From assembly GCA_030620115.1 (NCBI GenBank), contig JAUXFG010000222.1, positions 1-5,329 of the forward strand: 5,329 bases of DNA, written 5' to 3'. This document shows positions 2,880 through 3,111 of this stretch, piece by piece. The notes under the pieces were generated by a model that was not told the origin of the DNA, searched no databases, and saw nothing but the letters and a program-made list of their open reading frames with translations. Origin of the DNA: Candidatus Fermentibacterota bacterium (GTDB taxonomy: Bacteria; JAFGKV01). Numbering within the stretch: the first letter of the stretch is position 1; every line of letters begins with the position of its first letter. The translations under genes were made by a program, and so were the position numbers.

Positions 2880-3071
2880 TCAAGACAATGTAGGTCGGGT
2901 TAGCCCAGCGCAGCCCGACATCTCCTCATTATTCGTTTCCCACGCCCTCCCGATCGCTCCCGTGCCCCAATCCTCCGAGTATACGCCCGCATCCACGTAT
3001 CGCCACATGCTCGAATAGGGCCAATCCATCGGTCGACACACATACTCATGTTTGACCGGATTGTGGCCGGA
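2880..3071 (-). pseudogene. C-terminal fragment of a REP-associated tyrosine transposase (RAYT, Y1_Tnp family)
   Basis: The minus-strand frame reads HNPVKHEYVCRPMDWPYSSM and then WRYVDAGVYSEDWG, ending at TGA 2882-2880. This is the conserved tail of RAYT/IS200-like proteins (usually YIHxNPVKxGLVxxPxDWxxSSxxxYxxxGxYxxDW). About 48 residues match the family. The last dozen (MSGCAGLTRPTLS) are translated from the downstream REP. The upstream part, with the HUH metal-binding motif and the catalytic tyrosine, is gone: six codons before the NPVK motif the sequence turns into a second REP copy, and the frame closes at a TAG inside that REP. The fragment is therefore inactive. RAYTs move or maintain REP sequences, which fits the many REP-like palindromes here. 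Identification is strong for so short a piece. Confidence 0.8.
2890..2921. repeat. REP-like element, copy 1 (left of the RAYT fragment)
   Basis: The 32-base unit begins GTAGGTCGGGTTAGCCCAGC. It contains a nine-base stem (GTCGGGTTA at 2894-2902 with CAGCCCGAC at 2911-2919, two G-T wobbles) and an eight-base loop. It lies just downstream of the transposase tail, the typical REP position beside a RAYT gene, and supplies that frame's final codons. Confidence 0.8.
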
Positions 3072-3103
3072 ATGTCGGGTTACGCTGGGCTAACCCGACC
3101 TAC
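3072..3103. repeat. REP-like element, copy 2 (right of the RAYT fragment, inverted)
   Basis: This is the reverse complement of the unit at 2890-2921 at 30 of 32 positions. Its own stem is perfect: GTCGGGTTA (3074-3082) and TAACCCGAC (3091-3099) around CGCTGGGC. With copy 1 it forms a head-to-head pair flanking the 150-base transposase remnant. Confidence 0.85.
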
Positions 3104-3111
3104 TCTACTGC

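Follow-up and report, generated by a model that had tools for sequence, protein, structure and literature searches.

Internal-deletion MITEs and the PATEs of IS200/IS605 elements are units that keep the ends of a full-length relative, an active insertion sequence, have lost the transposase coding part, and are presumably spread in trans by that relative. The term PATE is used in PMC3119063. In REPINs, an inverted pair of REPs encloses a spacer of unrelated short DNA, and several such pairs are dispersed between the genes of a genome in which the same REP flanks a RAYT (Bertels and Rainey 2011, PMC3116915). The origin of REPINs was stated to be open, and Bertels and Rainey proposed, in general terms, that they arise from REPs flanking a transposase gene (PMC3116915). 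A RAYT (tnpAREP) gene together with its flanking REPs is called a REPtron, which is described as not transposing as a unit (PMC6006769, PMC8266576), and RAYT/tnpAREP genes are described as single-copy, with no evidence for mobility (PMC8266576). Our search of openly accessible journal papers returned this general hypothesis only and no described RAYT-derived REPIN.

The window analyzed here is a stretch of 5,329 nucleotides, contig C94 of a 4.10-Mb assembly in 296 contigs (98% complete, 1.6% contamination). It holds a unit of 214 bases in which the tail of a RAYT gene lies between two inverted REPs (Table 1). As the preliminary description had recognized, the REPs are arms of 32 nt in opposite orientation, complementary at 30 of 32 positions and separated by a spacer of 150 nt. 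This arm pair is far beyond chance, the best pair at a comparable distance in 20 dinucleotide-preserving shuffles of the window being 23/32. Each arm folds into a hairpin behind a GTAG foot, with an irregular stem, and thereby resembles the long, bulged REP type described for group 2 TnpAREP (PMC8266576). Read on the minus strand, the spacer (HNPVKHEYVCRPMDWPYSSMWRYVDAGVYSEDWGTGAI...) matches the genome's intact RAYT from NPVK on, while the HUH motif and the catalytic tyrosine, both within the deleted part, are absent from the unit itself. The likeness to REPINs (PMC3116915) is threefold: two inverted REPs stand around a short spacer, dispersed and mostly intergenic copies have unrelated flanks, and a RAYT with this REP on both sides is present in the genome. 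In contrast to REPINs, the spacer is a recognizable RAYT 3' end, and the unit differs from them in its size and low copy number.

Table 1. Features of the RAYT-tail unit and its margins, in window positions.
Feature	Positions	Strand	Remarks
Outer margin of right REP, AGACAAT	2883..2889	+	Also in other right-end copies; either the end of the element or a preferred target
Right-end REP, 3' side of RAYT tail	2890..2921	+	GTAG foot and hairpin; position as the REP 7 bases after the intact RAYT stop
53-aa open frame, GTG start	2880..3041	-	Broken RAYT tail
RAYT gene tail (NPVK...WPYSS...EDWG...)	2922..3064	-	86% identical to the intact C200 gene
7-base deletion, only in the window copy among type-A units	2950..2953	-	Frameshift; original stop bypassed, 53-aa frame continues into the REP
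Deletion junction, left REP - TTCCGGC then ACAATCCGG	3063..3066	-	About 400 RAYT bases absent
Left-end REP, 5' side of RAYT tail	3072..3103	-	Position as the REP 16 bases before the intact RAYT ATG
Outer margin of left REP, AGTAGA (consensus AGYAAY)	3104..3109	-	REP ends compared in register

One REP had been described as encoding the last codons of the frame. This holds for the window copy only, as a by-product of the 7-base frameshift, and is not a general feature: the sister copy on C200 and the intact gene both reach their stop (GAATAA) before the REP. A functional 53-aa small protein was rejected, considering that no family match above cut-off was found for the window frame, that the window copy is frameshifted, and that the copy on C205 has a nonsense codon in the tail, which is therefore not kept there as a protein. 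The window also has repeats of other kinds. A 38-base palindrome (GAATAGTCTAGTAAATCCA and its complement; 2797-2834), perfect and with no spacer, lies 55 bases from the right REP. Inverted repeats of 29 bases (93%; AACTACGAAATGCGCGAAACACGCGAAAA), 92 bases apart, form TIR-like ends around a short frame (2153-2302), another small element. Finally, 117-base tandem repeats (1695-1965) lie within a minus-strand RCC1-like gene that is probably frameshifted.

The genome has one intact RAYT of matching type, on contig C200. Its product (179 aa, MEYRRAFVPGG...EDVGNE) belongs to NCBIfam REP_Tyr_transpos (REP-associated tyrosine transposase; 194.8 bits, above cut-off), and its sole PDB match is E. coli TnpAREP (4er8). 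The HUH motif is present as HLH, and VDYIHYNP aligns with VDYIYINP of 4er8; the catalytic role of the tyrosine in this motif is known from the TnpAREP literature. The same inverted REPs flank this gene, the left one ending 16 bases before the ATG and the right one beginning 7 bases after the stop. In other words, the C200 parent is exactly a REPtron (PMC6006769, PMC8266576), and the window unit keeps both of its ends. The suggestion that the 5' REP had replaced the catalytic part is thus at odds with the intact gene, which has the same REP before its ATG; it was the part in between that was deleted. Likewise, neither a REP pair capturing a passenger nor truncation by REP-REP recombination is supported by the structure, which is an internal deletion within a gene already bracketed by REPs. 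As in internal-deletion MITEs, comparison with the full-length element of the genome shows both ends kept and the middle gone. The parent of those MITEs and of PATEs is an active insertion sequence, however, whereas the parent here is a RAYT, of a class regarded as domesticated and immobile.

Relatives of the C200 RAYT in 45 other genomes, mostly of Beta- and Gammaproteobacteria, are about 50-67% identical to it, and similar GTAGGTCGGGTTAGC repeats stand on both sides of the gene in the majority of the 35 neighbourhoods examined; the REP-bracketed state is therefore not peculiar to this genome. The full-length gene is present once in the assembly, and thus gives no sign that the whole unit has recently moved by itself. 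Contig C200 also has a REP hot spot, with eight REPs in about 5 kb (12473-17730), which contains the intact RAYT, a unit with the same deletion as the window unit, and a left REP followed by no more than the first RAYT bases.

Derivatives of the intact REP-RAYT-REP unit, drawn from searches and retrieved genome stretches, were aligned to that unit as a reference. In the window unit, a stretch of about 400 bases is missing between ATTCCGGC, which lies just inside the left REP, and ACAATCCGG, where the gene resumes three codons after the tyrosine of VDYIHYNP. This junction, called type A, was found at three sites: in the window, at C200:16494-16714 and at C205:4348-4568. Shorter units, type B, resume later in the gene, at CGGGCACGCGGCGATACG, and were found on C123, C223 (two places) and C101 with left flanks that all differ; the units on C101 and C223 end inside the repeat, and the true copy number is thus uncertain. 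The C29 unit is even shorter than the type-B class, the C146 unit keeps the first 11 RAYT codons and the tail, and partial units lie on C21, C168, C6 and C137. Segmental duplication was rejected, since the flanks adjoining the units are unrelated; farther out, these regions have other dispersed repeats in common. Unlike the described REPtrons (PMC6006769, PMC8266576), this one has dispersed deleted derivatives.

Both the further copies with identical ends and the full-length RAYT with the same tail, for which the preliminary description had proposed a search, are thus present in the genome. Its idea of a non-autonomous mobile unit is the best reading of a structure whose ends and junction are repeated unchanged at unlinked places, and the outcome it had opposed to this, decay of a single copy, is refuted by this recurrence and by the full-length RAYT. 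That one RAYT beside ordinary REPs decayed at random, with no unit ever mobile, would agree with the frameshift in the window and the nonsense codon on C205, but three unlinked places carry one and the same junction, and at least four copies belong to a second deletion class; these common junctions led us to reject random decay of one copy, and we consider this explanation extremely improbable. Two other arrangements were observed. Right-end units at C6:5409-5500 and C137:5124-5219 have the same extra sequence (GGCATTGCWAACGGTGATTTGAYGTACTTGTAGGAT) before the RAYT tail, a third, mosaic form. The other is a REP pair at C146:2346-2648, whose left and right margins are of the usual kind; the roughly 240 bases inside it are not RAYT DNA but resemble an inter-REP stretch on C200 (12507-12672), and may be a further passenger of a REP pair or part of a repeat family next to it.

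In a tree of the tails, the shorter class separates with a support of 100/99, while the type-A tails form no well-supported clade, and forcing them together is not rejected (p-AU 0.144). A single type-A deletion that then spread is thus not distinguishable from deletions that recurred at the same point. In the first case it was the shortened unit that spread; in the second, full units did so and lost the same stretch afterwards. Both histories require REP-bracketed RAYT DNA to have changed its location, and we infer that the RAYT moved the units. No clean empty site was found in the two family relatives, where the neighbouring gene is present (66-69% identity) but the DNA following it differs. 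Alternatively, all of these places may once have held full REP-RAYT-REP units whose middles were lost in independent events of hairpin-driven replication slippage, without the short form ever moving. The several distinct deletions fit such a course, and the tree leaves type-A monophyly unsettled. Nevertheless, slippage without long repeats at the breakpoints is unlikely to have produced an identical junction in three units and another in four or more, and the whole RAYT unit must still have moved, which makes slippage at every site a quite unlikely explanation.

Among the 58 REP sites in the genome stretches examined, aligned in register, AGYAAY-REP-TCCGG marks the left ends and AGACAAT-REP-CTCCR the right ends. 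Solo REPs adjoin unrelated DNA and carry either the left or the right set of margins, after which the shared sequence stops. At +6/+7, 11 of 17 solo REPs have CT, against a background of 5.9% (binomial P about 3e-10 if independent, although solo REPs may share ancestry and the count does not represent 17 independent events); in right ends still joined to the gene, this dinucleotide is mostly CA or TA. Cleavage by TnpAREP enzymes in vitro takes place at CT, for one of them also at CA, and the GTAG foot helps in choosing the site (PMC8266576). The type-A and type-B junctions lie directly after CT in the gene (unit positions 450 and 501). Because the junctions on C146 and in a Candidatus Methylomirabilis genome (see below) are not at CT, this is only suggestive of the RAYT itself making the deletions. 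A second REP subfamily, with margins CATCCC-GTAGG...CGACAA-TCCCCCATCCCCTTCCTGA (C5, C12, C39, C125, C187 and C215), probably goes with a different Y1 transposase of this genome, which has further PF01797 genes on C187, C118, C241 and C160.

The margins also bear on whether homologous recombination or gene conversion put the tail into pre-existing REP pairs, so that the interior spread without the RAYT. The approximately 58 near-identical REPs in the examined stretches would be substrates for this, and mosaicism among the tails hints at exchange: the C205 copy groups weakly with C146, and the window copy has its 7-base deletion region in common with C123 and C21. Recombination does not predict, however, that solo and paired REPs have the same precise margins ending at CT, and 32 bases of homology are short for RecA. 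We therefore hold this explanation to be unlikely.

Rather, the window unit is probably a non-autonomous, REPIN-like internal-deletion derivative of the REP-bracketed RAYT of this genome, moved in trans by the intact RAYT. An ancestral unit of left REP, RAYT gene and right REP would have lost its middle, including the HUH motif and the catalytic tyrosine, while its REP ends were kept, and REP-bracketed RAYT DNA would then have come to several places. By analogy with known TnpAREP chemistry, the C200 RAYT is likely to mobilize such DNA in trans: it would bind the GTAG-hairpin REPs on single-stranded DNA, cut at CT at a fixed distance 3' of the hairpin, and move the REP-bracketed DNA, or one REP alone, to another location. 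Misplaced cuts by the RAYT, rather than replication slippage, may have caused the deletions. More tentatively, REP-RAYT-REP could be a real transposable element here, in which CT cuts delete the core and keep yielding REPIN-like units and then solo REPs; RAYT genes would then be a repeated source of REPINs, beyond a single origin from an ancient IS200-like ancestor.

The arrangement of REP plus tail recurs in other genomes, but is rare. Tails without the catalytic part adjoin 3 of 80 RAYT neighbourhoods examined. In Candidatus Methylomirabilis (L106/L205), an inverted REP pair surrounds a stub and a tail about 1.5 kb from an intact copy, to which the retained tail is 85% identical; this genome has a further RAYT copy, which is frameshifted. 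In a Methylomonas genome (L122), a left REP is fused to a RAYT tail, with no right REP seen beside it, and a Gallionellales genome (L156) has a RAYT tail beside a different REP-like repeat. Tail-only RAYT pieces in Nitrotoga were rejected as the same kind, as they mostly occur without this REP and look like ordinary pseudogenes. A strict REP-tail fusion pattern, which does match this genome and the Methylomirabilis contig, was found in none of 369 genomes of another class, that of Nitrotoga.

The defined junctions and the CT boundary are testable on single strands with purified RAYT. Within one genome, there is a graded series of intact REP-RAYT-REP, REP-stub-tail-REP, REP-tail-REP, shorter REP-tail-REP and solo REPs with the same margins, which is what an internal-deletion origin predicts. 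The window unit fits the proposal of Bertels and Rainey on the origin of REPINs (PMC3116915), and the shrunken copies at several unrelated places suggest how REPINs may be born.
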